Shown here: positions 21,190 through 41,842 of the stretch, in pieces
Position numbering within the stretch: the stretch's first letter is position 1
How the letters are laid out: each line of letters begins with the position of its first letter
NCBI GenBank assembly: GCA_036226585.1
Contig: CP108997.1
Location: 1,240,001-1,304,000, forward strand
DNA length: 64,000 bases
Origin: Streptomyces sp. NBC_00708
Lineage (GTDB): Bacteria; Actinomycetota; Actinomycetes; Streptomycetales; Streptomycetaceae
Direction: 5' to 3'
The notes under the pieces: model-generated
Seen by the model: only the letters and a program-made list of their open reading frames with translations
Databases searched by the model: none
What the model was told of the DNA's origin: nothing
Translations under genes and position numbers: made by a program

Positions 21190-21227
21190 CACAGGCCCAC
21201 GGTTCCTTCAGGAATCGTGGGCCTGTG
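21190..21227. terminator. Terminator of tRNA-Leu overlapping the end of the STAND gene
   Basis: CACAGGCCCACG (21190-21201) pairs with CGTGGGCCTGTG (21216-21227), and an inner TTCCT/AGGAA pair extends it. On the plus strand it ends the tRNA transcript. On the minus strand the same bases encode the last codons of the trypsin-STAND-TPR protein, whose stop lies at 21208-21210. Confidence 0.75.
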
Positions 21228-24200
21228 TCGTTGTACGGTCCTCCCCGGTGCGGCCGGCCAGGCCGTACCAGAACGCCGCCTCCTCGTACGCGCCCTCCGC
21301 GTCCGCCACATCGCCCAGCAGCGCGAGCAGCGCCGGCGGGAGCGGGTGCGGGGCCGGGGCGGCGGGGGCCGGGCGTGCGGGGCGGGGCAGGGTGAGCGTC
21401 GGGCGGTCGGTGCCCGGCGGCTGGTGCGGGGTGTCCTCGTCGATGGCCGTCTCCTCGTCCGGGGCTGTGTCCTCGTCGTCTTCGTCGTCAGCCACCAGCG
21501 GCCGGTAGATCTCCATGGCCCGCTCCCGCTGCCCGGCGCTCAGCAGCAGTTCCGCGTACGTCTGGCGGGCGCCGGTCTCCGTGTCGCCGTCGCCGCCGGC
21601 GCACTCGATGGCCGCTTCCAGCCAGGGGTACGCCTCCTCCGGCCGGTTGTCCGCCGCCAGGACCCGGCCGAGCAGCAGCAGGGCCTGCGGCCGGTGCTCG
21701 GTGTCGTCGGAGCGGGCCAGCGGCAGCAGGACCTCCTCGGCCTCGGGCAGCAGGCCCAGCCGGAAGAGGGTGCTGCCGAGGTAGCGGCGGGCGAGCGGTT
21801 CGGTCTCCGGGTCGCCGGCGGCGAGGGCGTCCGTCAGCAGCTCGCGCGCGCCCTCCAGGTCGTTGACCGAGCGCCGGACGACGCCGAGCAGCGCACCGAT
21901 CCGGGGAGCGGTGCCGGGGCCCGTCAGCTCCAGCGCCGCTTCGAGCAGTTCGCCGGCCGTCTGGACCTCGCCGGTCTCCAGCAGGTATTCGCCGGCGCCG
22001 AGGTAGCCGGCGACGATGGCCTCCGCGTCGCCGGAGTCCTCCACCCGGACCAGGAGCGCCTGCGCGGCCTCGGGGTCGCGGTGCAGCAGCCGTACGGCGA
22101 GCCAGGCGCGGGCCACCTCGGTGACCTGGGACGGTTCGCCGTCGACCACCGTGCGCACCAGGGCCTCGGCGGCCTCGTCCTCGCCGTCGGCGGCCAGGCA
22201 CTTGGCGAGGTGGAAGCGGGCGAACTGGGAGGCGGCGCCGACATCGGCGTCGGCCGCGGCCCGCAGCTGCTCCCGGCCCTCCTCCTGCCGTTCGTTGCCG
22301 ATGTGGACGACGCCGAGGACACCGCGCGCCCAGGCCTCGGCGCCCGGGTCGTCCGACTCGGCCACCACCAGGAGCAGGCGTTCGGCCTCCTCGAAGTCGC
22401 CATGGTCGGCGAGCATGACGGCCAGGTCCATGCGGGCGATCAGCGACCACTGGGCGTGCCCGGAGTCGATGGCGACCCGGTAGTACCGCTCGGCCTCCTC
22501 GACACGGCCCTCGCGGACGAGGAGGTCGCCCAGCAGGTCGGCCGCGCGGGGGCCCTGGTGCGGGTGGCCGGAGCCGATGACGCTGTGGAACAGCTCGGCG
22601 GCGGCCTCCGCGCCGCCGTCCCGGGCCGTCTGCAGCAGGGCGAGTTCGATCCGGACGACCTGGACCCAGTCACGGTGTCCGGAGGCGACCGCGAGGCCGT
22701 ACGCGTGCTCGGCCTCCTCGATGCTGCCCTCGCGGACGAGGAGGTCGCCGAGCGCGGCGGCGGCGAGCGGGGAGAGGCCGGGGTGGCCGGCGCCGATGAC
22801 GGTGTTCAGCAGCTCCGTCGGCCGGGCCATGGGCTCCCCGCTGCCGGCGAGCATCAGGGCCAGCTCGACCCGGGCCATCCCGCCCCACTCCGGGTGCCCG
22901 GTGGCGATGGCCCGCTCGAACCACTCCTCGGCGGTGATCAGGTCGCCCTCGTTGGCGTACCACTCGGCGAGACCGCAGACCGCCCGCGGGCCCTGGGCGG
23001 GGTGCCCGGACTCGGCGGCCTCGCGCAGCAGGTCCATGCCCTGCGCGATGAGCCCGCGCGGGCGCAGCGACACGGCGAGCAGGATCTTGGCGTACGGGAT
23101 GAGGAGCGGGTTCCCCGAGTTGATCAGGGCCCGCAGGACCTCCTCCGCCTCCTCGTTGCGTCCCCGTACGATCAGGAGCTCGCCGAGGCCGACCTGGGCG
23201 CGGGGCACGGCGTGGAAGCGGCCGCCGGCCAGTGCGGAGCGCAGCAGTTCCTCGGCGCGGTCGACGTCGCCCTGGCTGATCAGCATGGAGCCGAGGCTGG
23301 CCTGGGCGACCGAGGCGACCTGGCCGGCCATGGACTCGCCGACCGCGCGGGACAGCGACCACGGCTGTTCGGAGGGTTCGGTGCGGCCGACGGTGGTGCC
23401 GGCGGCGCGCACCGTGGCCTTGCCCTGGCCGCTGCCGGGGCGTTGTCCCGTACGGGCGCCGGCGGCGTCGCCGTCGGCGCCGCTGAGGACGCTGACCAGG
23501 CGGGCCTGGGCCAGCGGGGCGGCCTCGGTGTCGCCGGCCGCGACGATCGCCTCCAGCATGCGTTCGGCGCGTTCGTCCTCGCCGTCCGCGAAGAGCAGGG
23601 TGGCCAGGCCGACCTGGGCGACCTGGGAGAGCTGGGGGTCGCGGGCGGCGACGGCGCTCTCCAGGAGCTGCCGTGAGCGGGTGCGGTCGCCGTACATCAT
23701 GAGCAGTTCGGCCAGGACGGCCTGGGCGAGCGGGACGACGCTGTCCACGGCGGACGCGACGGCGCGCTCCAGGAGGCGGGCCGCCGCGTCGAAGTCGGCC
23801 AGGTAGAGGTACATCTCGCCGAGCATCAGCGCGGCCCAGGCGGCGCTGTCGCGGTCGTCGGCGGCGTCCGCGATGCGCTCCAGGAGCCGTTCGGCGATCC
23901 CGGCCTCACCCCGCACGAGGGCGGTGTAGGCACGGGGGAGGAGTTCGGCGGCGGGACGGCGGTCGGCGAGGTACTTCCAGGCGAACCAGGGGACGAGCGC
24001 GGAGGGGTCGTCGTCGCGGCTGTCCAGGTACTCCGAGAGGTACGGCGTGCCGGCGTAGCCGTCGGGACCGGGTGCGCGGTGGACGAGGGCGATGGTGCCG
24101 GCGACCGGTTCGCGGGCCCAGGCCAGGGCCGTGCGGTAGGCGGTGTCGTCGGCGTCGAGCGCGGGGTGGTGCTCGGCCAGGTAGGCGGCGAACAGCTCGC

Positions 24201-25659
24201 GCAGGACGGCGTCCGGGACGGGGTCGGTGACGCCCATCCGCATCCAGTCGGCGGCGGCGCGTGCCAGGGCCCAGCCGGCCGGGCAGCTCTCGGCGCCGTC
24301 GGTGAACCGCTGCTCCAGGCTGGGGGCCGCGACCATGAGTTCGCCGATGCCCCGGGCGGTGAAGTCCTCGCCGGGGTACATCTCCCGGGCTGCCTCGGCG
24401 TCCTGCGGGCCCAGCAGCGAGGGCAGTTCGACGGTGGCCGCCTTGTTGAGCACGGTACGGGCGATGCGGCCGACGTCGTTCTCCATGGCGGTCAGCGCGG
24501 CCCGCTGCTTGGCGGGGATCGTCGCCACGATCGTGACGGCGGGCCGGCTGCGGGCCAGCCGGTCCAGGATCTGGAGGTCGAGGCCGCCGGGGTGGAGGTA
24601 GCGGTGCAGGTCGTCGAGCCAGAGCACCACCCGGTCGGAGCCGGTGGGCAGCGTGAGCCGGCTGAGGTCGTCCAGGGTCCGGCGCGCCGAGTCTCCGGGG
24701 CGCGGCACGACGAGCCGGGCGTCGGGCATCGCCCGCACCAGCGCCTCGTACAGCGTGCGGGACTTGCCGGCCTTGGAGCGCCCGGCGAGCAGCACGAACC
24801 GGTGTCCGGTGAGGAGTTCGGCGAGGCGGTCGTCCTGGGGGCTGCGGCGGACGTAGGGGGCGCGGTCGGTGCCGCCCCGGCCGGGGTCGCTGTACTTGGA
24901 GCGGCAGACACCGATGTCGTACGGATCCACCTCGTCGGCCCTCGGGATGCGGCCGTCCTCGGTGAGCGGCGTCCACAGCAGGGACTCCAGCCGGTCGCGC
25001 ATCTCGCTCGTGGTCATGTCGCGGACGAGGGGGCCGAGTTCGGGCCAGTAGCGGACGAGGGCCTCGACCTTGATGGCGTAGGCGGTGCGCCGGTCCACGG
25101 AGTTCACGGAGTCGCGGGCGACGAGCATCCCGACGACGCCCCCGCTGTTGACGTCCCACACCGGGCCGCCCGAGAAGCCCTTCTCCAGGCCCCATCCGGT
25201 GTGCGGGCCCGCCTCGACCTGGATCCACTCGCTGCCGGCGTGCCCGATGATGTCGCCGCGCACCGGGACGCCCCGGCGCTTGTGCTCCTCGGGGTAGCCG
25301 TAGGCGCGGAAGCGGTGGTCCCAGGTGCCGGGGTCGGTGGTGCGCAGCGGCGCGGGCACGGCCTCGGGGGGCGCGGGCGCGGCGAGTTCGAGGACGGCGA
25401 CGTCGCCCGTGCCGTCGCCGGTGTCCGGGTGCCAGCCGCCGGGCACGACCGTGGCGGGCAGCGGGTCGTGCGGGGCGGCGTACTGGAACCGTACGTACAC
25501 CGGCTTGCCGGGCGGCGCCGGGGCCCGCCCGGGGCCCACGACGTGGGCGCAGGTCAGGATGTGGCGCGGGGTGACGAGGAGTCCGGCGCCGACCGGGTCG
25601 CCGTGTTCGGTCCTGCGGACGCTGACCAGCCAGGGCGGGCGCTCCCAGTCGGGCGGCAC
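21208..25659 (-). CDS. Trypsin-like protease - STAND NTPase - TPR protein
   Basis: A 1483-aa multidomain protein without a signal peptide. Residues 1-210 are a trypsin/V8-like protease with an intact triad: His39 in LTCAHVV, Asp86 in TGDVAVL, Ser163 in GFSGGPVWD. Residues 270-560 are a P-loop NTPase with Walker A GRSKAGKSRT (Lys299) and Walker B VVLWLDD (about 344-350), fitting the STAND class. From about 560 to the end runs a long array of TPR/Sel1-like helical repeats with recurring GHP-type turns. Known relatives sense a signal through the repeats, use nucleotide-driven switching, and release an N-terminal effector protease. The GTG 25659 lies six bases after the stop of the upstream Trypco1-like gene and has no ribosome-binding site, so its translation probably depends on that gene. 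Its last codons overlap the tRNA terminator. Confidence 0.88.
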   Translation of the reverse strand: MPPDWERPPWLVSVRRTEHGDPVGAGLLVTPRHILTCAHVVGPGRAPAPPGKPVYVRFQYAAPHDPLPATVVPGGWHPDTGDGTGDVAVLELAAPAPPEAVPAPLRTTDPGTWDHRFRAYGYPEEHKRRGVPVRGDIIGHAGSEWIQVEAGPHTGWGLEKGFSGGPVWDVNSGGVVGMLVARDSVNSVDRRTAYAIKVEALVRYWPELGPLVRDMTTSEMRDRLESLLWTPLTEDGRIPRADEVDPYDIGVCRSKYSDPGRGGTDRAPYVRRSPQDDRLAELLTGHRFVLLAGRSKAGKSRTLYEALVRAMPDARLVVPRPGDSARRTLDDLSRLTLPTGSDRVVLWLDDLHRYLHPGGLDLQILDRLARSRPAVTIVATIPAKQRAALTAMENDVGRIARTVLNKAATVELPSLLGPQDAEAAREMYPGEDFTARGIGELMVAAPSLEQRFTDGAESCPAGWALARAAADWMRMGVTDPVPDAVLRELFAAYLAEHHPALDADDTAYRTALAWAREPVAGTIALVHRAPGPDGYAGTPYLSEYLDSRDDDPSALVPWFAWKYLADRRPAAELLPRAYTALVRGEAGIAERLLERIADAADDRDSAAWAALMLGEMYLYLADFDAAARLLERAVASAVDSVVPLAQAVLAELLMMYGDRTRSRQLLESAVAARDPQLSQVAQVGLATLLFADGEDERAERMLEAIVAAGDTEAAPLAQARLVSVLSGADGDAAGARTGQRPGSGQGKATVRAAGTTVGRTEPSEQPWSLSRAVGESMAGQVASVAQASLGSMLISQGDVDRAEELLRSALAGGRFHAVPRAQVGLGELLIVRGRNEEAEEVLRALINSGNPLLIPYAKILLAVSLRPRGLIAQGMDLLREAAESGHPAQGPRAVCGLAEWYANEGDLITAEEWFERAIATGHPEWGGMARVELALMLAGSGEPMARPTELLNTVIGAGHPGLSPLAAAALGDLLVREGSIEEAEHAYGLAVASGHRDWVQVVRIELALLQTARDGGAEAAAELFHSVIGSGHPHQGPRAADLLGDLLVREGRVEEAERYYRVAIDSGHAQWSLIARMDLAVMLADHGDFEEAERLLLVVAESDDPGAEAWARGVLGVVHIGNERQEEGREQLRAAADADVGAASQFARFHLAKCLAADGEDEAAEALVRTVVDGEPSQVTEVARAWLAVRLLHRDPEAAQALLVRVEDSGDAEAIVAGYLGAGEYLLETGEVQTAGELLEAALELTGPGTAPRIGALLGVVRRSVNDLEGARELLTDALAAGDPETEPLARRYLGSTLFRLGLLPEAEEVLLPLARSDDTEHRPQALLLLGRVLAADNRPEEAYPWLEAAIECAGGDGDTETGARQTYAELLLSAGQRERAMEIYRPLVADDEDDEDTAPDEETAIDEDTPHQPPGTDRPTLTLPRPARPAPAAPAPHPLPPALLALLGDVADAEGAYEEAAFWYGLAGRTGEDRTTTQAHDS

Positions 25660-25665
25660 GGGAGG

Positions 25666-25986
25666 TCAGTCCGCCTGGGGGCGGTTCCAGGAGACCTTGA
25701 CCGAGAAGTGCCCCTCGATCGCGGTCTTGGCGATCACCACGCCGGACTCGGCGTTGAACTTCATGCCGAACTCGATCTCGTAGGCGTCGGGGCCGAGCGC
25801 CCGCACCGACTCCATCACGGAGCGGAGCGCGGGGCGGGTCTGCGCGAGCGCGTCCTCCAGCCGCCGTCCGGCGCGCACGACCTCGCCGGAGTCGCGCGAG
25901 ATGCGTTCGAGCCCGGGGGCGTCGTCGTCCACCTCGACCTGGAGCGAGGCGCCGTCCGGGCCCTCGAAGGACACGACTTCCGGCAT
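25666..25986 (-). CDS. CU044_2847 / Trypco1-type trypsin-co-occurring small protein
   Basis: A 106-aa protein: an N-terminal beta strand pair (VVSFEGPDGASLQVEVDDDAP), a helix with ALAQTRPALRSVMESVRALG, and a C-terminal strand segment (FGMKFNAESGVVIAKTAIEGHFSVKVSW). This is the CU044_2847 pattern, the trypsin-co-occurring domain type 1, which is found next to trypsin-STAND proteins and may regulate or feed the protease. AGGGGGA precedes ATG 25986. It is the first gene of a two-gene unit with the 1483-aa protein, separated by six bases. Confidence 0.85.
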   Translation of the reverse strand: MPEVVSFEGPDGASLQVEVDDDAPGLERISRDSGEVVRAGRRLEDALAQTRPALRSVMESVRALGPDAYEIEFGMKFNAESGVVIAKTAIEGHFSVKVSWNRPQAD

Positions 25987-26126
25987 GAAGTCCCCCTGTG
26001 CCTGTGGTGGTTGTGTGGCGGCCGGGACATTCCGGCAGCTCGATCGTATCGGCCGGGACCGCCCCGCGCGGGGGCTTCGGGTGATGTGATGATGGCGATC
26101 GGGTGCACCTGGGGACGGAGACCGTC

Positions 26127-27110
26127 GTGAACGACGCCACGGACGAGATCGCTGCCGCGCTGTCGGGTCCCGGGCCGGATGCGGAGGTCGCGCTGCGGGT
26201 GCTGCGCCTGGCCTTCCGGTGGGCCGGCGCGGCGCTGGAAGGGGTCGACGGCGCGGAGAGCGGCGCGCCCGCCCTCGCGGCGCTGTTCGCGCTGGAGGAC
26301 GCGCTGGAGGAGTCCGGGGCGCTGGCCGCCGCGCTGCCCGCGCTGGTGGAGGCGGCGATGCCCGGCGAGGCGGTCGGCGGCGGCACCGAGGAGCTGATGC
26401 GCAAGCTCGGCACCGTACGCGCACGGGTCCGGGAGGAGCGCGAGCGGACCGAGCTCGCGCACGCCGCGCTGGAGAAGCTGGCAGCCGCCGAGGAGGCGCT
26501 GCGCGGCCGGCTCGCCGAGCACGAGGCGCTGCGCCGTCAGGTCGACGAACTGCGCCGGCTGGAGCGCCTGGTGCTCGCCCTGGACGCGCTCCAGGAGCAG
26601 CAGGAGGTCATCGCGGAGCGGCTGGCCGCCCTGCGCGGCCGGGATGCCGGGGTCGAGGGGACGCTGCGCACGAGCAGCGACGCGCTGGTCCGGCTGTCGG
26701 AGGACCAGCTCGCCGCCCTGGCCCCGCGCACCCGGCAGGTCCTGGAGCGGGCCGAGGCCGCGCAGCGCGCGCTGGCCGCCGAGGAGCGCGAGCACGGCGA
26801 CGCGGCGGCGGACCTGGCCGAACGGCAGGCCCGGCTCGAACGCATCCGCGAGTCGCAGGGCGACCGGGTCGCCTCGCTCCGGCGGTACGCGGCGGTGGAC
26901 CGGGAGCTGGCCGGTGCCCTGGCGGCGCCGGGGGGCGCACCGTCCGGCACGGTCACCCCGGAGCACCGGGTGACGCTGGCCGAGGTGGAGGCGGCCGGCG
27001 AGGAGATCGAACGGCGCCTCGGCGAGGCCGACGAGGCGCTGCGGCGGGTCCTGGCCGAGCGGGACGCCCGGGACCGGGACGGGAAGACCGTGGTGCACCG
27101 GGCCGGGTGA
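26127..27110 (+). CDS. Long coiled-coil protein divergent from the trypsin-STAND unit
   Basis: A 327-aa protein. About 85 residues of Ala-rich helix lead into roughly 200 residues of heptad-patterned coiled coil (LRGRLAEHEALRRQVDELRRLERL, KTRQVLERAEAAQRAL and similar), then a short basic tail. No catalytic motif or membrane segment is seen. GGAG eight bases before GTG 26127 favours this start over GTG 26103. It diverges from the Trypco1-like gene across about 140 bases and converges on the AAA+ gene with stop codons only 11 bases apart, so it sits exactly between the two halves of the system and may be a structural partner or signal arm. Confidence 0.75.
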   Translation: MNDATDEIAAALSGPGPDAEVALRVLRLAFRWAGAALEGVDGAESGAPALAALFALEDALEESGALAAALPALVEAAMPGEAVGGGTEELMRKLGTVRARVREERERTELAHAALEKLAAAEEALRGRLAEHEALRRQVDELRRLERLVLALDALQEQQEVIAERLAALRGRDAGVEGTLRTSSDALVRLSEDQLAALAPRTRQVLERAEAAQRALAAEEREHGDAAADLAERQARLERIRESQGDRVASLRRYAAVDRELAGALAAPGGAPSGTVTPEHRVTLAEVEAAGEEIERRLGEADEALRRVLAERDARDRDGKTVVHRAG

Positions 27111-27121
27111 GGGGCGCCGCC

Positions 27122-29722
27122 TCAGTACGGCGGTGGCGGTACGTCCCCCGGCAGGAAGCGGGTGAACGCCTCGGCCTCCGCCTCCGCGCCTCCCCGTGCG
27201 AAGCGGTCGGCCAGACGGGCCTCCATGAGTTCGAGCAGTTTGCGGACCGTGCGGGCGTTGCCGAAGCCTGCGGGGTCGGCGCGCCGGACCACGCGGAGCC
27301 ACTCCCCCGCGTGCCGGGGCACCTCGGGGTCCAGGGTGTAGCCCTGGTCCGCGGCCATCCGGCGCAGGATCTCCAGGAGGTCGTCGAGCCCGTAGTGCGG
27401 GAAGGGCACATGCTCGGTGAAACGGGACGCCAGGCCGGCGTTGGAGGCCAGGAAGGTGTCCATCTCGTGGGGGTAGCCGGCGACGATCACGGAGAGGCGG
27501 CCCCGCCACTGCTCCATCTCCAGCACCAGGGTGTCGATCGCCTCCTTCCCGTAGCCACCGTGCCGCACATCGCTGACCAGGCTGTACGCCTCGTCGATGA
27601 ACAGCACCCCGTCCAGCGCCTCCTGCACGGCCGCGCGGACCAGCCGGGCGGTCTCGCCGAGGTAGGCGCCGACGAGGGTCGCCCGGCTCGCCTGCACCAC
27701 ATGCCCCTTGCGCAGCAGGCCGAGGTCGCGGAAGAGGGTGCCGACGAGCCGGGCGACGGAGGTCTTCCCGGTCCCGGGCGGGCCGGTGAACAGCAGGTGC
27801 GGGGGTGTCAGCTCACCGGTGCCGTGGGCCTGGCGCAGGCGCTGCCGGTTGGCGAGGCCGGTCAGCACCTCGCGTACGGGCCGCAGTCCCACGTACGCGT
27901 CCAGCTCGGCGAGGAGCCGCGCGGGGTCGGGCGCCGGGCGTTCCAGGTAGTCGCGGTAGCGCTCCGGCAGGTCGTCGGGGGCGACCGGTTCGTCGACCCT
28001 GCCGCGCACCCGGTGGGACCAGCGGGCGAAGACGGCGTCGGCGAGGGTGCGCATGTCGCGGGCGTTGCCGAAGAACTCGTCGCGGGTGCGGTGCATCTCG
28101 GAGACGATCCGCAGGAGCCGCGTCTCCGTCTCGGGGGCGGGGAGGGCGCCGCGCTCCCGGAGCCGGCCCAGGGCGATGGAGTGCAGGACCGGTGGCGGGT
28201 AGTCGGGGAAGCGCAGGATGTTGTCCTCGGCGAATCTGCTCCGCAGGCCGGGGTTGGCCTCCAGGAACTCCCGCATCTTGTCCGGGTAGCCGGCGACGAT
28301 GACCACGAGCCGGGCGCGGTCGTTCTCCATGCGGGCGAGGAGCGCCTGAATGGCCTCGTCGCCGAACCCGTCGCGCTGGTCGCTCAGTCCGTACGCCTCG
28401 TCGATGAACAGCACGCCGTCCAGGGCGCTGTCGATCGTGGCCTCGGTCAGCTCCGAGGTCCGGCCCACGAAGCTCGCCACCAGGTCGCTCATCTTCGCCT
28501 CGACCACATGGCCCCGTTCCAGGAGCCCGAGGTCGCGGTAGATCTCCCCGACGAGCCGGGCCACGGTGGTCTTCCCGGTGCCCGGGTTCCCGGTGAACAC
28601 CAGGTGCAGGGAGGGCGGTTCGAAGTGGCCGGCCCGGCCGCCGGCGTGCAGCGCCCGCACCGTCTCGACCTCGGCCCGCAGCTGTTCGAAGCGCTCGCGC
28701 ACCACGTCGAGCCCCGGCATGGCCTCCAGCCGCTCCCAGGGGCCGCGGGGGTCTCCCGCCGTGGCCCCGGGGACGGAGGCGCGTACCGCGGCCGCTCCGA
28801 GGGCGGCCCCGGGGGTGTCGCCCAGGTGCTCCAGCCAGGCCTTCCAGGCGCTCGCCGTGCGGGGGTGGCTGCCCATCGCCTTGACGACGCCGTCGAGTTC
28901 CCGCCAGTCCGCGACGGGCAGACCGGTGCGCAGCCGTACGGCGTGGACCAGCCGTTCCACCTCGGCGGCGGGCGGGTAGTCGATCCTGGCCGTTCCGGGC
29001 CGGCCCGGCCGCCCCGCCTGCTGGCGGATCAGCGCCTCCAGGGCCGGGTAGGCGTGGCAGGACTCCACGAACCGGGCCACCTCGTTCAGGTCGGGCCTGC
29101 GGAAGACCATCAGCCACAGGTTGCCGTTGCCGTGCTCGTCGGTCCAGCTGTCCATGGCTCCGGCCAGCTCGCGCTCGGCGCGGTAGTGGCGCAGGGTGCC
29201 CTCGGCGTGCGCGAAGACGACCGCCGTACGGTGCTCGCGCCGGCTCAGGTAGCCCTTCAGGGTCATCACGGCGAACGGATCGCTCACGCCGGGGGCGGAC
29301 ACGGGGGCGGGCAGCGGCGCGCTCTCCTCGCGGGGCGCGAGGGCGGGCCCGCCGGTCACCCGGAGGGTGCCCATCGGGCCGCGCATGCCGGGGGTGCGCA
29401 TGACGGGCCGCCCGGCGCCGCCGCCGGTGCGGGCCGGGGACGGGCGCCCGCCGGGACGGGACAGGTCCCGGGAGGCGGTGTCCCGGAAGTAGACGGGGTG
29501 GTCCGTGGAGCTGAAGACGATCCGTTCGTAGCCCTCGGCGCGCAGCAGCCGCCACAGCGCCTCCTCCAGCCGGCACACCTGGTAGGCGGTGTCCACGAAG
29601 ATGTCGCCGGCGCCGGGCCCGTAGAGGATGGTGAACGGCTCGCCGCCGCGCAGCGCCGCCGCGTCGAGGCGTTCCACGACCGGCCCGGCGGCGGCGCGTG
29701 CCGGCTTGTTCAGCCGGGTCAT
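27122..29722 (-). CDS. Double AAA+ ATPase (CbbX/SpoVK type) with degenerate N-terminal domain
   Basis: An 866-aa protein with two CbbX/CfqX-type AAA+ modules. Module 1 has Walker A FTGNPGTGKTT (about 374-383) and Walker B GVLFIDEAYGL (about 434). Module 2 has Walker A FTGPPGTGKTS (about 642) and Walker B GVLFIDEAYSL (about 705). Both have the VAGYP..M sensor segment and arginine-finger region. The N-terminal 300 residues resemble a third, P-loop-less module (PFTILYGPGAGDIFVD, then FSSTDHPVYFRD). Such ATPases remodel protein partners. ATG 29722 overlaps the stop of the upstream coiled-coil gene as ATGA. This is the last gene of the eight-gene operon. Confidence 0.88.
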   Translation of the reverse strand: MTRLNKPARAAAGPVVERLDAAALRGGEPFTILYGPGAGDIFVDTAYQVCRLEEALWRLLRAEGYERIVFSSTDHPVYFRDTASRDLSRPGGRPSPARTGGGAGRPVMRTPGMRGPMGTLRVTGGPALAPREESAPLPAPVSAPGVSDPFAVMTLKGYLSRREHRTAVVFAHAEGTLRHYRAERELAGAMDSWTDEHGNGNLWLMVFRRPDLNEVARFVESCHAYPALEALIRQQAGRPGRPGTARIDYPPAAEVERLVHAVRLRTGLPVADWRELDGVVKAMGSHPRTASAWKAWLEHLGDTPGAALGAAAVRASVPGATAGDPRGPWERLEAMPGLDVVRERFEQLRAEVETVRALHAGGRAGHFEPPSLHLVFTGNPGTGKTTVARLVGEIYRDLGLLERGHVVEAKMSDLVASFVGRTSELTEATIDSALDGVLFIDEAYGLSDQRDGFGDEAIQALLARMENDRARLVVIVAGYPDKMREFLEANPGLRSRFAEDNILRFPDYPPPVLHSIALGRLRERGALPAPETETRLLRIVSEMHRTRDEFFGNARDMRTLADAVFARWSHRVRGRVDEPVAPDDLPERYRDYLERPAPDPARLLAELDAYVGLRPVREVLTGLANRQRLRQAHGTGELTPPHLLFTGPPGTGKTSVARLVGTLFRDLGLLRKGHVVQASRATLVGAYLGETARLVRAAVQEALDGVLFIDEAYSLVSDVRHGGYGKEAIDTLVLEMEQWRGRLSVIVAGYPHEMDTFLASNAGLASRFTEHVPFPHYGLDDLLEILRRMAADQGYTLDPEVPRHAGEWLRVVRRADPAGFGNARTVRKLLELMEARLADRFARGGAEAEAEAFTRFLPGDVPPPPY

Positions 29723-31107: not shown

Positions 31108-31756
31108 CGTGTTCCTGTCCTCTCACGGGGGTCGTGGTACGGGTGCGGACCGCGTCGACCGCGAGGTCGAAGGCGTCGAGCAGGCCGGGCGGCGGTACGC
31201 CGATGAGCAGCGCCTCCGGGCCGTTGACGGCGATCTCGGCGGACCGGGTGCGGTGCTCGAAGTCGTAATCCGCTCCGGCCAGGCGGCCGGTGAGGTGGTG
31301 GACGCGCTGGTTGGTGCTGCCGCGCAGGCCGCGTCCGTCGTCCAGGGCGGCCACGTACACACCGTCGACGAGGACGTCCACCTCGGCGAGGAGCGCGGGG
31401 ACGCCGGGGTCCGGGGGGCGGGTGCGGAGCCGTTCGAGCCGGTGGCCGGTGAAGCAGATGACCGAGACGTCGCGGATCTCCCGGGCCAGCCGGGCGACTT
31501 CGGCGAGGCCGGCCGCCTGGGCCATCGGCTCGCCGCCGGAGAAGGTCAGCCCGGTCACCCGCTCGTCGGCCAGCAGTTCCCGGGCCAGTTCCGCAGGGCC
31601 GGCCCGCCGGGCGGGCCGGAAGGGGATCCAGTCGGGCGCCATGCACCCGGCACAGCTGAACGGGCAGCCCTGCACCCAGAGCGCCGACCGCACCCCGGGG
31701 CCCAGTGCCTCGGTGCCGACGCGGGTGGCCGCCACGTTCAGCGCGGCGGCGGTCAT
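31097..31756 (-). CDS. NrdG-like 4Fe-4S radical SAM protein
   Basis: A 219-aa protein with the cluster motif CPFSCAGC: Cys31, Cys35 and Cys38, the CX3CX2C spacing of radical SAM enzymes. LTFSGGEPMAQA is the GGE SAM-binding motif. Its size and WVQGCPFSC context match the NrdG/pyruvate-formate-lyase-activating group (4Fe-4S single cluster domain). These normally install a glycyl radical on a partner enzyme, yet no glycyl-radical enzyme is present in the window. ATG 31756 overlaps the vWA gene stop as ATGA. In this operon it may modify a neighbouring protein; that is inference. Confidence 0.85.
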   Translation of the reverse strand: MTAAALNVAATRVGTEALGPGVRSALWVQGCPFSCAGCMAPDWIPFRPARRAGPAELARELLADERVTGLTFSGGEPMAQAAGLAEVARLAREIRDVSVICFTGHRLERLRTRPPDPGVPALLAEVDVLVDGVYVAALDDGRGLRGSTNQRVHHLTGRLAGADYDFEHRTRSAEIAVNGPEALLIGVPPPGLLDAFDLAVDAVRTRTTTPVRGQEHDER

Positions 31757-33363: not shown

Positions 33364-34694
33364 GAGCCCACTTCCTTGGAGTCGGTGCCGATGTCGGCCG
33401 GCAGGATGCCCAGCGGGAAGGCCCCGGGTGATCCGGCGCCCAGGGGGTGCAGGACCAGGGCGGCCGTTCCGTCCGCGGCGATCCGGACGCCCACGTGGAA
33501 GCGGTCCGTCGCGTCGCCGCCGGGCAGGGTGAGGGTGCGGACGGGTGTGCCGGCGCCGCCTCCGGGGGCGCCCACCCGCACGCGCACCGGGTGGTCCGCC
33601 CGGGTGCGTACGCCGATCCGCCGCCCGTCCGCCTCGGCGAAGACGACGGGCCCGCCCGGTTCCAGCGTCCCGGCGGCGCTGACGAGCAGTTCGCTGTCGG
33701 CCGGGTGGCCCGCCTCGGTGCGGTGGGCGCCGACCCGCACCTCGTACGGGTAGCGGTCGGCCGGGTCGACGCGGCCGGCGGCGACGAGCGCGGCGCCGAG
33801 GACCGCCGCGTGGGCCGGGTCGGTGCCCTCGGGCAGCGCGGTGAGCGGCCGGCCGGCGCCGTCCAGGTGGGGGCGCAGGGGGCCGAGTCGGGCGACGCCG
33901 CCGACCAGGGCGAGCGGGGTGTCCCGGCCGGGGCCCAGCGCCTCGGCCAGCGCCCGGTCCAGGCCGTCCGTCAGCAGCGGCAGCGCGGAGCGGACCGCGC
34001 CGGCGGTGACCGGGCGGCCCGCCACGTGGTGGACGGCGGTGGCCTCGAAGCGGCCGGGGTCGCGGGCGGCCCGGTCGAGGACGAGGCCGAGGCGGCGGGC
34101 GGCGCCGGGCTCGGCCCGGACGGCGGCCAGGGCGCGGCGGTGGTCCTCGTCCGGGGGGAGCCCGGCCCGGGTCAGGAGGGCCGTGTCGAAGCCGGTGCCG
34201 TAGCCGTCGTCGGGGGCGTGCCGGGACGTGGCGGCGACGGCCACCGCGCCCGGTGTCACCGTGCACACGGAGACCTCGGCCGCCGCCGCGCCGAGGTCGC
34301 ACACCGCGTACCGGCCGGGGGCGGCACCGCCCGTGTGGCGCAGGAGGGCGAGCACGGCGTGCGGGGTGGCCAGCGTGCGCACGTCGGGTGCAGGTCCCGC
34401 GCCGGGCGGTGCGGCGAGTGCGTCGGCGGCGCGGCGCGCGTGGGCGGCCCGGTCGTGCTGCGGGACGACGACGAGCAGCCGGTGCGGGGCGTCGTGGTGC
34501 CGGAGGTAGGCGTCGTACGCGGCGCGCAGCGCGGCGCCCCGGTCACCGGCCGCGGACCCGGGCACGGGCAGCCCCTCGCCGGGCACCGCGCCCTCCAGTT
34601 CGACCGGTTCGGGTGCGCCGCCGGGGCCGACGCGGGCGAGGCGGACGTACCGCGAGCCCGCGTCGATCGCCAGGGCGTGTCCCGGGGCCGTCAT
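33360..34694 (-). CDS. Hsp70/actin-fold ATPase-like protein
   Basis: A 444-aa protein. The N terminus LAIDAGSRYVRLA matches the phosphate-1 loop; YAVCDLGAAAAEVSV matches phosphate-2; LALVGGVARLGPLRPHL matches the adenosine loop of Hsp70/actin-fold ATPases. The C-terminal 110 residues are beta-rich (EVRVGAHRTEAG, GGPVVFAEADGRRIGV) like a shortened substrate-binding part. It lacks the DnaK lid, so it is not a normal chaperone. ATG 34694 overlaps the GAP1-like gene stop as ATGA. It probably couples ATP state to one of its operon partners. Confidence 0.78.
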   Translation of the reverse strand: MTAPGHALAIDAGSRYVRLARVGPGGAPEPVELEGAVPGEGLPVPGSAAGDRGAALRAAYDAYLRHHDAPHRLLVVVPQHDRAAHARRAADALAAPPGAGPAPDVRTLATPHAVLALLRHTGGAAPGRYAVCDLGAAAAEVSVCTVTPGAVAVAATSRHAPDDGYGTGFDTALLTRAGLPPDEDHRRALAAVRAEPGAARRLGLVLDRAARDPGRFEATAVHHVAGRPVTAGAVRSALPLLTDGLDRALAEALGPGRDTPLALVGGVARLGPLRPHLDGAGRPLTALPEGTDPAHAAVLGAALVAAGRVDPADRYPYEVRVGAHRTEAGHPADSELLVSAAGTLEPGGPVVFAEADGRRIGVRTRADHPVRVRVGAPGGGAGTPVRTLTLPGGDATDRFHVGVRIAADGTAALVLHPLGAGSPGAFPLGILPADIGTDSKEVGS

Positions 34695-37408
34695 GGGCGC
34701 CCCCGGTTCTTGAACCGGCCGGGGTGCCACCAGGGCGAGCGCTCCTCCGGGTACGCGGAGGCGGGCGGGTAGGCGGGGTGACCGTCGGGGCCCTGGGGCG
34801 GCGGGGACGCGGGCGGGGCACCGGGCGGCTGGTGGGGGCCGGGGCCCGGGTGCCCGCCGGGGCCCGGGTGTGCGGGAGGCGCGCCCGGTCCCTGGTGCGC
34901 ACCCTGCGGAGGGGGCGCGGCCGGCGGGGCCGCGGGTGGGAAGGGCCGCTGCTGGTACGGGGCGTGGGCCGGGCCGGCGGTGGGTACGGCGGAGCGGCTC
35001 AGGGCGCCGATGATCCGGCGGTGCCGCTCCTCCTCCAGCCTGCTGAAGCGCATCAGCCGGGCGCGCAGCTCCTCGAACCGGGTGTCCCGGCCCAGCGCCT
35101 CGTACAGGGCGAGGCCGATACCGGGCTGCTGCCGGTCCAGGTCCATGGTCAGCGCGAAGGCGAACTCGGCCCCGCAGCGGCTCAGCAGGGCGGCGACCTC
35201 GTCCAGCAGGCGGCCCGTGAAGGCACGATGCGGACAGCCGCTGATGATGATCCCGGCCAGTTCGTTCAGTTCGGCCTCGGCGGTGACGGCCAGTCTCAAC
35301 TGCCGCACCGCCCCCAGCCAGCCGTGTCCCCGGCGGTCCAGGTCCGCCAGCAGGTTCTCGGACAGGTCGAGGTCGAGCCAGCGGGCGTACTCCGGGGTCC
35401 TGAGCCGCTGGGACAGCCCTTCGCACACGGTGATCTGGGTGCTGGGCACCTGTTGCATCCACCGGGAGAGGACGGGCCAGCCGTGCACGGGGTCCGGCCG
35501 GTCCCCGAGAAGGGCCTCGATGGCGTCGTCCCGCAGCGCGGAGTCGCCTTCGGTGCGGGCGACGAGCGCGTGGGCGTACCGGTCGAGGGCGGGGGCGCCG
35601 TCGGTGATCCCGCGCAGCCGGCGCAGCGGGGCCGCCGGGCGGCCTCCGGGCCCCGCCGGCCGGCCGAGCAGCGACAGCAGGTCGGCGGCGGCGGCGGTCT
35701 CCGGCGCGAGTCCGGGTGCGCCGGGGGGTGCCAGCTCCTCCAGGAGCGCGGGCAGTGCGGACGGCCGGCCGCCGAGGAGGACCCGGCGCAGGACCGGCCA
35801 CAGGGGGCCGATGACCCCGGGCTGCCGGTGGTCCCGGGCGGTCTCCAGCGCGCTGCGCCAGGCGTCCTCCTTGTCCCCGAGGAACGCGGCGGCGTCGGCC
35901 TCGGTGGCCCCGGCCGCGGCGTGGTGCCCGGTGAGCGCGCCGGCGAAGCGCAGCCAGCCGGGGACCGGGCCGCTCCCGGGGGCGGCTGCCAGGGCCAGCA
36001 GGCGGTCCAGCGGCCCCAGTTCGCGGGCCCGGTTGCTGAACAGCCCCCGTACCCAGGCGAGTCCGGCCGCCGGGACGCCGATGAGGACCCGGTCGACCGC
36101 CTCGGTGGAGTATCCGTACTCCTTCTCCACCATGTAGGCGAGCTGCCCGGCCCAGTCGGGGGCGTAGCCGGGCGCCGTCGCCAGCGCCGTGAAGAGGCGG
36201 CCGAACGCCGTGGGGCGGGTGGGGCCCTCCAGCCCCTGCATCAGGCGCAGATACGCCCTGGCCCGGGTGAACGTCTCCTGGGACGCGGGCCGCGCGAGGA
36301 CCTCGGCGGCCAGCAGGTCCGGGATGCGCGGCGTCCAGTGGCGGGCGAGCAGGGCCTTCGCTGTGCCGTCGTCGGGGAGTGCGGCGCTGTCCGCGAGGAA
36401 GGTGACCAGCTCCTGCTGCCGTCCCTCGTCCAGGGTCTCCAGGGCGTGCAGGGCGAGCAGCCGGCCGACCTCCTCCACCTGGCCCCTGCCCTGCCGTACG
36501 GCGTCCAGGACGGAGTCCAGGAGGTCGAGTTCGCGCAGGACGCGTACCGCGTCGGCGCCTTCGCGCAACGGGACGGGCGCGGTGGCGGCGAGGAGGTGGG
36601 CGATGACGTCGGCGGTCGACTCCCGTTTGGCCCGGACCCGTGCGAGTTCGGCGAGGTAGACGCGGGCGGTGTCACTGCCGGGGGCCGGGGGCCGTCCGGT
36701 GGCGAGCGGCGTCTCCGTCTGCCCGGTGCGCGCGGACCCGGCGAACACCAGCCGCAGGGCGTGCTCGGTCTTCCCGGCCCAGGTGGCGCCGCTGAGCCAG
36801 GTGCGGCAGCCGTACGGGAGCAGGGCGCAGATCGCGTCGAGGACCCGGACCCGTTCGTCGATGTCCGGGAGGGTGCCGCCGCGCGGGGCGGTGATGACGA
36901 GGTGGCGGCCGTCCAGCAGGAGGGCGGCCATGGCTGCGGCCCACTCGAAGCCCAGCCGGTCGACGGTGGCGGCGAGTTCGGCGGCCGGGGTGCGCTCGGC
37001 GTGCAGGACGGCTTCCGCGCCGGGATGGGTCTCGGCGCGCGCGGCGGCCCGGTCGAGCGAGGTCCAGGTCACCCCGGCGCGGCTGGCGGGCTGCCATTCG
37101 GCGAGCAGCAGCCGCCAGGTGTAACTGGGCGTGCCGGTGGCGTCCTTGGAGCCGTCCCAGGTGGTGTCGACCACCGCGCAGACGGGCCGGTCCTCGCCGT
37201 CCGCGGTGCTGAGGAAGACCCGCCAGGGCAGGCTGCCGGCCGGATCGCGGACATCCGGGGTGCCGGTGGTGGCGCTCCACAGATAGCGCTGGGCCCTGTT
37301 CCCCGGCAGGCTGCCGTCCAGGACCTCGTACCCCATGCCGCGGCCCGGCTGCTTGCCCAGGACGGCCCAGTCGGCGGGCAGCGGCACCGCGCCCCGGTCC
37401 TCGCTCAC
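34691..37408 (-). CDS. GTPase-associated protein 1 (GAP1)-related protein
   Basis: A 905-aa cytoplasmic protein. The N-terminal 120 residues (LGKQPGRGMGYEVLDGSLPGN.., SLPWRVFLSTA..CAVVDTTWDGSKD) match what I recall as the GAP1 N-terminal domain. A P-loop-free alpha-helical middle and C-terminal region of about 620 residues follow, with a final Pro/Gly-rich tail (about 770-890). It is coupled by GTGA to the GTPase gene, consistent with being its dedicated partner. No catalytic residues can be pointed to. The family assignment is from memory and would need a profile search. Confidence 0.75.
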   Translation of the reverse strand: MSEDRGAVPLPADWAVLGKQPGRGMGYEVLDGSLPGNRAQRYLWSATTGTPDVRDPAGSLPWRVFLSTADGEDRPVCAVVDTTWDGSKDATGTPSYTWRLLLAEWQPASRAGVTWTSLDRAAARAETHPGAEAVLHAERTPAAELAATVDRLGFEWAAAMAALLLDGRHLVITAPRGGTLPDIDERVRVLDAICALLPYGCRTWLSGATWAGKTEHALRLVFAGSARTGQTETPLATGRPPAPGSDTARVYLAELARVRAKRESTADVIAHLLAATAPVPLREGADAVRVLRELDLLDSVLDAVRQGRGQVEEVGRLLALHALETLDEGRQQELVTFLADSAALPDDGTAKALLARHWTPRIPDLLAAEVLARPASQETFTRARAYLRLMQGLEGPTRPTAFGRLFTALATAPGYAPDWAGQLAYMVEKEYGYSTEAVDRVLIGVPAAGLAWVRGLFSNRARELGPLDRLLALAAAPGSGPVPGWLRFAGALTGHHAAAGATEADAAAFLGDKEDAWRSALETARDHRQPGVIGPLWPVLRRVLLGGRPSALPALLEELAPPGAPGLAPETAAAADLLSLLGRPAGPGGRPAAPLRRLRGITDGAPALDRYAHALVARTEGDSALRDDAIEALLGDRPDPVHGWPVLSRWMQQVPSTQITVCEGLSQRLRTPEYARWLDLDLSENLLADLDRRGHGWLGAVRQLRLAVTAEAELNELAGIIISGCPHRAFTGRLLDEVAALLSRCGAEFAFALTMDLDRQQPGIGLALYEALGRDTRFEELRARLMRFSRLEEERHRRIIGALSRSAVPTAGPAHAPYQQRPFPPAAPPAAPPPQGAHQGPGAPPAHPGPGGHPGPGPHQPPGAPPASPPPQGPDGHPAYPPASAYPEERSPWWHPGRFKNRGRP

Positions 37409-38580
37409 CGCTGCCACAGCTTCGTGCCGCTGGACCGGATGCGCTTTTCGAGGTCGATCAGCGGTTCCAGGACGTTGATGGGCACGGGCGAGGTGCAGAT
37501 GTGGGGCACGCCTTCGATGAGCTCGACGTTCAGATAGTTGCGGTAGTCGAAGATGTTCTGCGGGTTGAGCCGGAAGCCGATGGCGGAGGTGGCGTAGTAC
37601 GAGATGCGGGACGGGTGGAAGAAGTTCGCCAGGCCGTCGCGCACCAGGCGGGCACCGGCGCCGCGCACGTCGTCGCACATCCACTGGAAGAAGCGGGCGG
37701 CCTGCTCGTCGGGGACGCGGGGCAGCCGGTTGCCCTCCAGGCTCTGCGTGACCCAGCCCGCCTCCACGGCGGGGCGGAACACCTCGGGGTGGTCGAACTT
37801 GGTGATGCAGACCGAGACATGGTGCGGCAGCCGGTTGCGGTAGAGCTTCCCGGCGTCCCGGACCCGGGCGTTCAGCTCGTTGAGCATCGAGTAGAGGAAG
37901 TTGAGCCCCTCGCTGGCCCGCTGGCTGTCGAGCAGCGGGTCGAAGAGGTAGATCAGCCCCTGGGAGCGGGCCAGCTGGTCCAGCACCCTGGGCCGCAGGG
38001 CGTTGGCCTCGTCGCCCCGGTACGCCTCGCCGGTGACGTCCTGCACCTCCAGGATGAAGCCGGTCTCCCGGCTCTTCCTGAACGGTCCGGCCTTGGGCTC
38101 GTCGCCCTGGAAGGACCAGGAGAGCGGCTGGAGGCCCACGGTGGCCTCGGGGAAGAGGCGGCGGATCGCCAGCCGGTTGACGCCGTCACTGAGGAATTCG
38201 ATGGACTCGGGGTTCATCCCGCCGATGACCCAGTTCGAGCGGCTGTGGCGCTGCTGCTGCATCGCCGCGATGGCCATGGAGGCGAGGTACGTCGTCTTGC
38301 CGGAGCGGGGCGCGCCCCACAGCCCGATGCGGACGCGCTCGGAGGCGGGGTTCTCCACGCCCGTGGGGGCGACCGGGATGGGCATCGGTTCGAGGTTGCC
38401 GTCCATCGCCGAGTACGAGGCCTGCCGGTAGTCGGGGACGGGGTCGGGCTGCTGCGGGAGGGTGCCCCAGGGTGCCGTGGTGGCTTCGGGATCGGAGGAC
38501 GAGGGGGCGGGGCCCGGCGGTTCGGACGGCCCGACCGCGTCCTGCGGGGGCTCGTTGGGGTCGTAGTACGGATCGTTCAT
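37405..38580 (-). CDS. TRAFAC-type GTPase
   Basis: A 391-aa protein. A proline-rich N terminus (1-75) precedes a GTPase domain: G1 GAPRSGKTT near 87-95, G3-like QDVTGE, G4 ITKFD near 258, G5 TSAIG near 331. The order and TKxD form fit the TRAFAC class. The C terminus ends with a conserved DLEKRIRSSGTKLW helix. A GAGGAGAG site precedes ATG 38580. It follows the zinc-ribbon gene by 28 bases and overlaps its GAP1-like partner by four. It may act as the switch of the system. Confidence 0.85.
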   Translation of the reverse strand: MNDPYYDPNEPPQDAVGPSEPPGPAPSSSDPEATTAPWGTLPQQPDPVPDYRQASYSAMDGNLEPMPIPVAPTGVENPASERVRIGLWGAPRSGKTTYLASMAIAAMQQQRHSRSNWVIGGMNPESIEFLSDGVNRLAIRRLFPEATVGLQPLSWSFQGDEPKAGPFRKSRETGFILEVQDVTGEAYRGDEANALRPRVLDQLARSQGLIYLFDPLLDSQRASEGLNFLYSMLNELNARVRDAGKLYRNRLPHHVSVCITKFDHPEVFRPAVEAGWVTQSLEGNRLPRVPDEQAARFFQWMCDDVRGAGARLVRDGLANFFHPSRISYYATSAIGFRLNPQNIFDYRNYLNVELIEGVPHICTSPVPINVLEPLIDLEKRIRSSGTKLWQR

Positions 38581-38608
38581 GTCTCTCTCCTCGTACCGGA
38601 GCGGTCGG

Positions 38609-40498
38609 TCACAGCAGCGGGGTCGCGAGGGCCAGCGGGCAGGGCAGGCCGTCCCACTGCCAGGGAGGGGCGAGGGCGTCGGCCACGTCGTCCGCCGTGT
38701 CGGCGCCGGGGCGGAACGAGCCGCCGGCCCCGAGGGCGTCCCAGGCGGACAGGGCGTAGTGCTGTACGGGGCCGGGCTTCCCGGGCCCGGTCTCCCGGTC
38801 CGCCCGCGCCATGACGCGGACCCCCCGGGCGTGCAGGGCGTCGAGTTCGGCACGCCAGTCGGCGCCCAGGGGGCAGGAGGGCACCACCTCGTGCTGTTCG
38901 GGCAGTCCGGGCGGGCGGCGGCCGACGACGAGCAGGACGCGTTCGGTGTGCGGGAGGCGCGCCGGGCGGGCCCGGTCCTTCACGAGCCGCCCCACTTCCT
39001 TCAGGGCGTCCTCCAGTGAGGAGGCGGTGTCCTGTTCGCGCCGTGCGGGCCGCCAGCCGGTCAGCTCGGCGAGGGCGGTGCGGGCGGGTCCGGCCGGGGC
39101 GCGCCGCAGAAGCACGGGGCGGGGCCCGTAGCGGTTCTCGTGGACGGCGTGGTCGTAGTGGCCGACGACGCCGACGCGCAGGCCCGGTCCGTGGCGGCGG
39201 TCCAGGGCGGCGATGACGTCCCGGACGAACGTGAGCCGCTCGCCGGTCTCCGCCGGGCCGGTGCCGCTCATCTCGACGGTGAGGAACACCTCCAGGGCGG
39301 GCGGGTGGATGACGCGCCGGGGCAGGCTCCCCAGCAGGGCGGGGATGTCCGGTAACTCGCCCCGTGCGTGGCCCTCCGGGCGGGCGGTGCCGGGTGCGGC
39401 GCCCTCGTCCGGAGTGACCTCGCCGGGGCCGTGCAGGACGAACGCCAGCCGGGCCGGGGCGAAGGCGGCCAGCGCCGTCCGCCGCGCGGACAGGGTCACC
39501 GCTCCGCTGCCGTCCGCCCCCGGTGCGCCGGCGAGGACGGGCAGCAGGACCGGGGCGCGGGCGGCGAGTCCTCCGTAGACGGTGATCTCGGCGGTCGCGG
39601 TCTCGCCGCGCCGCAGCCGTGATCCGGCCGGGAAGAGGACCTGGGTGTGGGCGTGCACCTCGCCGGTGCGGCGGTCCACGCGGGCGAGCAGGAGGGAGTG
39701 GTCGACGGCCAGCGGCGCCGTCCGCAGCGCCGCGCGCACCGCGTCCTCGGTGTCCGTGCCGGGGATCCCGGCGGCTTCGCCGGGCCCGGGGCCGATCTCG
39801 GCGCTCGGGCGGTGGAGGGACCGCAGCAGGGCGGCGGCCCGGTCGAGCAGGACCCAGCCGCTGCGGCGGCCGAGCATCACGAGCGTGCGGGCCCGGGAGA
39901 GCGCGGGGTGGGTGCGCAGCCACTGTGTGAGGGCCGCGTCGAACTCGGCGCGTTCCAGGGGCTCCTGGGTGCCGATACCTCCGGCGAGCCGGAACCTGCG
40001 CGGTTCCGCTTCGCCCTCGAGGACGGGCAGGAGCCGGCCCCAGTCGGTGCTTCCGGCGTCGGTCTGCCGGGGGATGCCGCTGCTGTCGGCGGCGGCCCGG
40101 ATCACGCGCACGCGGTCGGGCGTGAACTCGGCGAACACCACGTCGGGGATGCGGCCGTCGACCAGGTCCGTGAGGATCTGCTGCCAGCGGGCGGAGTCGT
40201 GCGGGGGTAAGGAGTCCTCGGGGAGCGGCACGGGGTTCGCGGGGTCCGCCGGTCCGGCCCGCAGCAGCGGGGCGATCCGCCGTAAGCCCTCCGCGTCGCC
40301 CTGGGAGAGCGTCGCGGCGCGCAGGTCCCAGGTGTGCTGGGCGGTGCGCAGGGCGGTCCGGGCGGCTTCCCGGTCGTCGTCGGTCAGGGCGCCCAGGACC
40401 GGGTCGTCCCACATCCGCCAGGAGCAGCCGGCGCACTCCGGCCCGCCCGTGTCCGGCATCGCGCACACCGGGCACACCACTCCGGTTCCACTCGCCAA
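38609..40498 (-). CDS. Zinc-ribbon protein with vWA-like C-terminal domain
   Basis: A 629-aa protein, first gene of the operon. The N terminus has CPVC and CAGC pairs (about residues 9-25), a probable zinc ribbon. The middle is mixed alpha/beta. The C-terminal domain (about 410-600) resembles a vWA fold, LEVFLTVEMSGTGP standing where DxSGSM would be, so its metal site may be altered. A TTG start at 40498 follows a GAGGGGG site at good spacing; GTG at codon 7 or 8 is the alternative. Together with the outward-facing vWA protein it gives the operon two vWA-type modules. Confidence 0.72.
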   Translation of the reverse strand: MASGTGVVCPVCAMPDTGGPECAGCSWRMWDDPVLGALTDDDREAARTALRTAQHTWDLRAATLSQGDAEGLRRIAPLLRAGPADPANPVPLPEDSLPPHDSARWQQILTDLVDGRIPDVVFAEFTPDRVRVIRAAADSSGIPRQTDAGSTDWGRLLPVLEGEAEPRRFRLAGGIGTQEPLERAEFDAALTQWLRTHPALSRARTLVMLGRRSGWVLLDRAAALLRSLHRPSAEIGPGPGEAAGIPGTDTEDAVRAALRTAPLAVDHSLLLARVDRRTGEVHAHTQVLFPAGSRLRRGETATAEITVYGGLAARAPVLLPVLAGAPGADGSGAVTLSARRTALAAFAPARLAFVLHGPGEVTPDEGAAPGTARPEGHARGELPDIPALLGSLPRRVIHPPALEVFLTVEMSGTGPAETGERLTFVRDVIAALDRRHGPGLRVGVVGHYDHAVHENRYGPRPVLLRRAPAGPARTALAELTGWRPARREQDTASSLEDALKEVGRLVKDRARPARLPHTERVLLVVGRRPPGLPEQHEVVPSCPLGADWRAELDALHARGVRVMARADRETGPGKPGPVQHYALSAWDALGAGGSFRPGADTADDVADALAPPWQWDGLPCPLALATPLL

Positions 40499-40618: not shown

Positions 40619-40763
40619 GGGGTCAGGGTTCGGACGGATGGGCGGGCGATCTCGGACAACACCCCCTGACGAACCGGTTCTTCACCCCTCTTCTCCCGGG
40701 CGGTCACCGACGTCGTAGCATCGTCGTTTTATGTGATCTTTACTGTTTGCCAGGGGGAATGTG

Positions 40764-41828: not shown

Positions 41829-41842
41829 ACGAGGAGAACCCC

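Follow-up and report, generated by a model that had tools for sequence, protein, structure and literature searches.

Gene content and organisation of the locus

We analysed a window of 64,000 nucleotides (C1:1240001-1304000) from the genome of Streptomyces sp. NBC_00708 (7.65 Mb, 3 contigs), which contains a candidate conflict system encoded by eleven genes, here designated A to K. All positions are window coordinates, and the genes at the locus were called by codon-usage scoring; an overview is presented in Table 1. Eight genes (A to H) run on the minus strand from 40498 down to 27122, and neighbours from B to H overlap by 4-13 bp. Gene I lies on the plus strand, convergent to H, and J and K follow beyond it on the minus strand. 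An initial annotation of this DNA had placed eleven genes within 19 kb at 21208-40498, and the gene calls agree with it; as for the extent of the element, the whole lies in an island at a tRNA-Leu gene which also holds the genes M and N (40761-43018).

Table 1. Genes and other features of the locus in window coordinates
Feature	Position	Strand	Description
A	38609..40498	-	CPxC..CxxC zinc-ribbon-like N-terminus (by eye); C-terminal region possibly a degenerate vWA
B	37405..38580	-	TRAFAC-type GTPase, DO-GTPase2 group; GAPRSGKTT, DxxGE, TKFD
C	34691..37408	-	GTPase partner in the GAP1 position; at best a distant GAP1 relative
D	33360..34694	-	Short Hsp70-like protein: nucleotide-binding domain and beta-rich C-terminal region
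E	31753..33363	-	Signal-peptide-like start, vWA with DTSGS, hydrophobic segment 401-419, tail of ~115 amino acids
F	31097..31765	-	Radical SAM enzyme like NrdG and the pyruvate formate-lyase activating enzyme; CxxxCxxC intact
G	29719..31107	-	Long coiled coil and C-terminal beta domain; core partner of F and H
H	27122..29722	-	Own N-terminal domain and two CbbX/EccA-type AAA+ modules
I	26103..27110	+	Coiled-coil protein, convergent to H; family search without match
J	25666..25986	-	Trypco1 (trypsin-co-occurring domain 1); Pfam 2.4e-25
K	21208..25659	-	Trypsin-like protease, STAND-like P-loop, TPR array
tRNA-Leu(GAG)	21100..21187	+	Left island border; ARAGORN and Rfam
M and N	40761..43018	+	Two genes, Pfam without match; additional island cargo

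Distribution of the gene block

A match to B is found in 10 of the 101 genomes of the genus, the genome under study included. In the nine others the 20 kb around B were taken, with a further 20 kb on one side in five. Genes A-H together with I are present in the same order in G068, G038, G049 and G075, with outer genes which differ from those of the window. J-K follow the block in G068 and G038 only; in G049 and G075 their place is taken by a large gene, family f13. Upstream of A, scans of the G049 genes give CHAT, RES and, weakly and under the cut-off, a macro domain, and similar genes are seen by translation in G075. Distant relatives of A, B, C and E are present in G034, G084, G087 and G095, with kinase-like genes recognised by translation only. 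In G024 (L019 13719-16421) a B-like GTPase lies in a 900-residue frame, and the 40 kb around it lack the rest of the block.

To survey more widely, five aligned F sequences were compared with genome contigs; this gave 257 loci, the best 80 of which were kept, with gene order called by profiles of all parts and phyla read from the record titles. The most widespread part is F-G-H, found in order in 72 of the 80 loci (56 of 59 in Actinomycetota, 15 of 16 in Chloroflexota and one of five others, Thiomargarita). Concerning the remaining eight, L036 and L081 are truncated by a contig end close to F or G, L091 and L105 keep F and H, and four keep F only; six loci on viral contigs likewise have F only, at 27-35% identity. 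The initial annotation had recognised the radical-SAM, coiled-coil and AAA+ proteins correctly but listed them as parts among others, though they form the widest core. All of A-H are in order in 17 of the 80 loci, and I is present in every one of these; J-K accompany the block in 11, f13 in four, and neither in two. L038 is the G049 locus and L041 the G075 locus, so that, with G068 and G038, 19 loci other than that of the window contain A-I. Other arrangements are the order F-G-H-A-B-C in 29 Actinomycetota loci, I directly after D in three Chloroflexota loci and one Acrocarpospora locus, and F-G-H with a protein of zinc-ribbon-WD40 type and another Hsp70-like protein, and no B, in five loci (one member per family scanned; the Hsp70-like protein, at 20.0 bits, is just under the cut-off).

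Across 396 genomes of the phylum, the F profile reaches E<=1e-40 in four (the genome under study, G088, G369 and G153). The G153 copy (141.9 bits) is probably a plain NrdG, since it comes right after an NrdD-like frame. A genome search with G gave four matches besides its own, probably coiled-coil noise, since they have E values of 7e-5 or weaker and cover part of the model only. Both prevalences are lower bounds, because seven candidates per genome were scored for F and five for G. Among 72,556 plasmid records searched with G, one matched. The mobilizable plasmid NC_019728.1 of Calothrix sp. PCC 6303 (L115 5349-22576) contains genes for an Hsp70, a TPR protein, F, G and H, two DO-GTPase-like genes on the opposite strand (one over the cut-off), and ParA/ParB. 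Kaur et al. 2020 (PMC7159879) call GTPase-centric systems nearly absent from cyanobacteria.

The protease genes and the exchangeable slot

Looking at the position next to A-I in the 19 other loci, which are not 19 independent events since some are close relatives, J-K are found in 13, a CHAT-family gene in four and neither in two (L033 and L048). The CHAT-family gene is f13 (L037, L038, L041 and L046), of which one member was scanned (L038, CHAT 3.6e-42). The His-Asp-Ser triad motifs are intact in the window K and in all 11 orthologues examined (eight checked by script, L044 and L051 by alignment, L049 by tblastn). When the first 500 residues of K were compared with the 101 genus genomes, the orthologues found were at 74% (G038) and 72% (G068), both adjoining the block; the other matches listed have at most 99 bits, and no K orthologue away from an A-I block was seen in these genomes. 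Because the same A-I block has J-K, a CHAT-family gene or neither beside it, J-K look like an exchangeable effector module, with K probably the effector. The initial annotation had treated all eleven genes as one system: A-I do recur as a unit, but J-K are swapped for the CHAT-family gene in four of the 19 loci and missing in two. It had also warned that the trypsin and GTPase/AAA+ units would be mere neighbours if they never co-occurred elsewhere, and 13 of the 19 loci have both. In L058 and L098, too, the gene immediately upstream of F encodes a protein with Trypsin_2 and TPR domains (nSTAND5 matches weak and sub-cut-off), and L092 has a CHAT protein and an alpha/beta hydrolase.

Conserved domains of proteins A to E

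Protein A has no match in Pfam. Its C-terminal region may be a degenerate vWA: in hhalign the probability against E is 2.3%, compared with 0.2-0.3% for four controls (alignment A6, 31 members). In two scanned relatives in the same position (L053 and L075), WD40 takes the place of this C-terminal type. The second of the two vWA modules proposed in the initial annotation is unproven.

In the B family, 27 of 35 members match DO-GTPase2 at E<=0.01, and the Walker B glutamate of DO-GTPases is present in the window protein (DxxGE). The family search in its own genome gave no match. Against the DO-GTPase2 protein of locus L157 (in G088), which is over the cut-off, hhalign gives 98.6% (E 7e-16).

The position of C downstream of the GTPase and its length fit GAP1. 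The GAP1-M value in Pfam is 0.25 for the window protein alone, and one of 31 members reaches 0.008. Compared with the full GAP1 of L157, C gives a collinear hhalign match of 7.1% (E 0.005), and HMMER with the C profile gives none; compared with 12-sequence GAP1 sets from Streptomyces loci, whole and trimmed, it gives 0.1-1.6%, with 1.4% for the control, E. One comparison, which a faulty pattern had reduced to one GAP1 sequence, gave 27.7% (E 0.0006) and was discounted. The GAP1 label which C had been given at the outset is accordingly unproven, as the Pfam profile is not reached.

The Hsp70 nucleotide-binding fold is recognised in D (444 amino acids), with a phosphate loop altered relative to Hsp70; the helical lid is absent from the predicted structure model. 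Residues 132 and 144, around the phosphate-2 hairpin, are cysteines in 93 and 94, respectively, of the 95 sequences aligned, though the most distant of these are only 14-30% identical to the window D; P0187, which deviates at both positions, is an Hsp70 of distant type. We considered a disulphide or a cluster bound at these cysteines and dropped the idea, as the strand register of the model would, on our reading, put them on opposite faces of the hairpin; the replacement of C144 by leucine in the L157 relative also speaks against it.

E matches VWA_2 in Pfam (2.5e-13). Based on the signal-peptide-like hydrophobic start, DTSGS and one later hydrophobic segment, identified by hydropathy and motif scanning, its vWA is probably outward-facing, as the initial annotation had proposed.

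Conserved domains of proteins F to I

F (222 amino acids) matches Fer4_12 (3.6e-29) and is similar both to NrdG (4e-24, 85.3 bits, under the NCBI cut-off of 126.1) and to the pyruvate formate-lyase activating enzyme; its cysteines and GGEP are invariant in 27 of 27 sequences. The structure model of G has a pLDDT of 81.7 and no Foldseek match at E<=0.001 among PDB or viral (BFVD) structures, which does not establish a new fold. In H, Pfam recognises AAA in two stretches, with CbbX (3e-90) and EccA1 (3e-76) as relatives and AAA_lid_6 in the modules. A tRNA-Pro called inside H (28930-29015) was taken as false, because ARAGORN alone called it and it is below the Rfam gathering score.

Relationship to GTPase-centric and other known systems

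In G088 a GAP1-M match lies about 8 kb from F. The order of this locus, L157, is vWA, PP2C, kinase and F, then a coiled coil resembling G, an AAA_2 and an Hsp70-like protein, a zinc-ribbon DO-GTPase2 and finally GAP1, with its N2, M and C domains all over the cut-off. Comparison of the window families with L157 by hhalign gives, besides the GTPase, 97.0% for the Hsp70-like protein, 88.9% for the AAA start and 59% for the coiled-coil end. With HMMER the window profiles of B, D and F match clearly. Since L157 joins F and its partners to a full GAP1, it links the window block to the published GAP1-N2 GTPase-centric systems; we read L157 as the kinase theme of Kaur et al. (PMC7159879) with F and its partners added. 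Next to it (L158) are a CHAT gene and a RES-like gene. The A-H block of G049 (L017) likewise has CHAT and RES genes nearby, which suggests that it and the G088 GAP1 system share effector modules. Canonical GAP1-M proteins are present in 34 of the 101 genus genomes, including that under study (C1:5820959), so the window block is not the sole member of the class there.

As far as the available text of Kaur et al. 2020 (PMC7159879) describes them, the kinase-theme GAP1-N2 systems combine a DO-GTPase, GAP1 (N2, M, C), a protein with fibronectin type III (FNIII) repeats and variable effectors. The window resembles these systems in having a DO-GTPase-like gene with a partner after it where GAP1 would stand, in its Hsp70-like, vWA and membrane components, and in the variable effectors and actinobacterial mobile neighbourhoods. 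A constant core with a variable effector is found here as a trypsin or CHAT-family gene beside A-I, with unlike flanks and a tRNA-Leu island. It differs in that C is far from the GAP1-N2/M/C profiles and the block lacks a kinase, a PP2C and an FNIII gene; the set of NrdG-like radical SAM protein, G and double AAA+ protein is not mentioned for GAP1-N2 systems in that text.

The VMAP ternary systems, which combine a MoxR ATPase, a vWA and VMAP, and the FtsH ternary systems of the same paper (PMC7159879) have trypsin and Trypco1 neighbours, and radical-SAM proteins in peptide-processing sets, SPASM-fused or Memo-Ammecr1-related. The window likewise has trypsin and Trypco1, a radical-SAM protein and a vWA. 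In contrast to these systems, H is of CbbX/EccA type, and F, at its length, is NrdG-like and too short for a SPASM fusion; MoxR, VMAP and FtsH are not recognised in the Pfam tables of the window proteins (for H, the best 25 of 37 families). No gene for a precursor peptide stood out at the locus, without a search aimed at one.

Concerning individual proteins, F shares family, CxxxCxxC and GGEP with NrdG and the pyruvate formate-lyase activating enzyme, and differs from NrdG in scoring under its cut-off with no glycyl-radical partner found in the genome. H shares AAA+ modules with AAA_lid_6 with CbbX (rubisco activase) and EccA1 (type VII secretion), unlike which it has two modules in one chain and its own N-terminal domain. 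D differs from Hsp70/DnaK in its length, lidless model, altered phosphate loop and conserved cysteines. The initial annotation knew of no described system with the full combination, and our literature search, within the accessible papers and the part of PMC7159879 consulted, showed no description of it.

The island at tRNA-Leu

The tRNA-Leu(GAG) gene lies between an M20 peptidase gene and K. We compared the regions around the pseudouridine synthase gene in 11 relatives: the M20 gene, tRNA-Leu and the synthase gene are together in eight, with an M20-synthase spacing of <0.5 kb in four, 0.9 kb in one, and 2.7-7.2 kb of other cargo in three. Because five relatives have little or nothing at the site and three have other cargo there, A-K together with M and N form an insertion at a variable site. 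In the remaining three the synthase gene is elsewhere; these include G049 and G038, whose A-I blocks are at other sites than that of the window. No exact copy of the tRNA 3' end is present between the tRNA and position 46000 (the longest shared piece, 14 bases, comes from the tRNA 5' part), and no integrase is recognised among the island genes in Pfam scans. M and N, whose products show hydrophobic N-terminal stretches by eye, have no match of >=45 bits in the orthologous loci and none >60 bits at the relatives' site.

Interpretation and alternative explanations

The reading we prefer, with moderate confidence, is that the locus represents a mobile conflict system, related to but diverged from the GAP1-N2 GTPase-centric systems and built on a radical-SAM/coiled-coil/AAA+ core, whose response probably ends in dormancy or death of the affected compartment. 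An assembly resembling a conflict system, as proposed at the outset, finds support. Several observations weigh against this reading. The system is rare, with B in 10 of 101 genus genomes and F (E<=1e-40) in 4 of 396 phylum genomes. The window B is below the DO-GTPase2 curated cut-off and C fails the GAP1 profile. In L157, G and C have no HMMER match and H is marginal (0.0014), and the hhalign comparisons with that locus ran without a control. No fn3 match at E<=1 is found among the 18 window proteins scanned (for H, the best 25 of 37 families), and PADLOC gives weak or generic matches at the locus, nothing specific. Judged by their translations, the genes that relatives carry at this site look metabolic. 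F requires a 4Fe-4S cluster, which is awkward in an aerobe, and has no known substrate; that K acts through F-G-H is our inference.

An unlikely alternative is an envelope or morphogenesis machine, in which E, H, D and the GTPase would drive the assembly or turnover of a membrane complex or secretion apparatus in growing filamentous bacteria, and K or the CHAT protein would only process its parts. The closeness of H to CbbX and EccA1 and the membrane-protein appearance of E fit this, and many of the surveyed taxa are filamentous. DO-GTPases are also linked to membrane stress in PMC11237479. However, the occurrence is patchy, as the GTPase counts in the genus and the five relatives with little or nothing at the site show. 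The protease module is also exchanged, and both points are unlike a housekeeping machine. A second idea, already disfavoured and in our view very improbable, is that J-K are a stand-alone trypsin-STAND module which chances to adjoin the operon. J-K are absent from six of the 19 other complete loci, and I stands between them and the block on the opposite strand; yet they lie beside the block in 13, with outer flanks unlike those of the window in the two examined, no K orthologue away from the block was seen in the 101 genomes, and similar trypsin-TPR proteins lie beside F in two distant loci. We give still less credence to an activase-chaperone set for a glycyl-radical enzyme, with F as an NrdG-type activase and D and H as maturation factors. 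The NrdG-like and activating-enzyme-like character of F agrees with it, as does the reach of its profile to the probable plain NrdG of G153, but F falls under the NrdG cut-off and neither Gly_radical (PF01228) nor NRDD (PF13597) has a match in the genome or among the 18 window proteins scanned by Pfam.

Returning to the mobile conflict system, gene content and order, intact motifs, block recurrence, effector exchange, the island site and the connection with a full GAP1 system are observed directly; the order of the steps proposed here draws on family knowledge and on effector exchange. Sensing or scaffolding at the membrane would fall to E, through its outward-facing vWA, and to the zinc-ribbon protein A, and GTPase B with its partner C would set a threshold switch. 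D (Hsp70-like) and H (double AAA+), together with the coiled-coil proteins G and I, could hold or remodel a client, while F, whose 4Fe-4S and SAM motifs are intact, would modify a protein of the set and so license assembly. The signal would then open the STAND gate of K, and its trypsin-like domain, aided by the Trypco1 protein J, would cleave proteins of the cell or the invader; in sister loci a CHAT protease takes the place of K. We also put forward, tentatively and as an unlikely reading, that F-G-H with the Hsp70-like partner constitute an unrecognised, widely shared radical-licensed switch module, in which the NrdG-like enzyme would place a radical-derived modification on a coiled-coil or chaperone client bound by the double CbbX-type AAA+ motor, so that iron-sulphur/SAM status would gate GTPase-controlled, exchangeable death effectors in filamentous bacteria.

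A module of radical SAM, coiled-coil, double AAA+ and Hsp70-like proteins would be new to the predicted GTPase-centric conflict systems; it recurs in Actinomycetota and Chloroflexota, and partly in Thiomargarita and on the Calothrix plasmid. One core carrying either a trypsin or a CHAT protease is a natural experiment, and the locus offers one defined place in which to study how GTPase, Hsp70 and AAA+ switches are wired. If the core does license the protease, it would mean that bacteria use radical chemistry to gate immunity or cell death.

Further genes near F in the surveyed loci

In loci of the Actinomadura type, such as L059 (7612-9231), a DUF4407 protein often neighbours F (family f7 in 20 loci, one member scanned). 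A protein of family f26 is found between F and G in four loci (L057 10784-11755, L074, L076 and L080), with an EAD1 match in L057. In L048 (10738-11934) the frame between F and G resembles by eye a TnpB-type gene.

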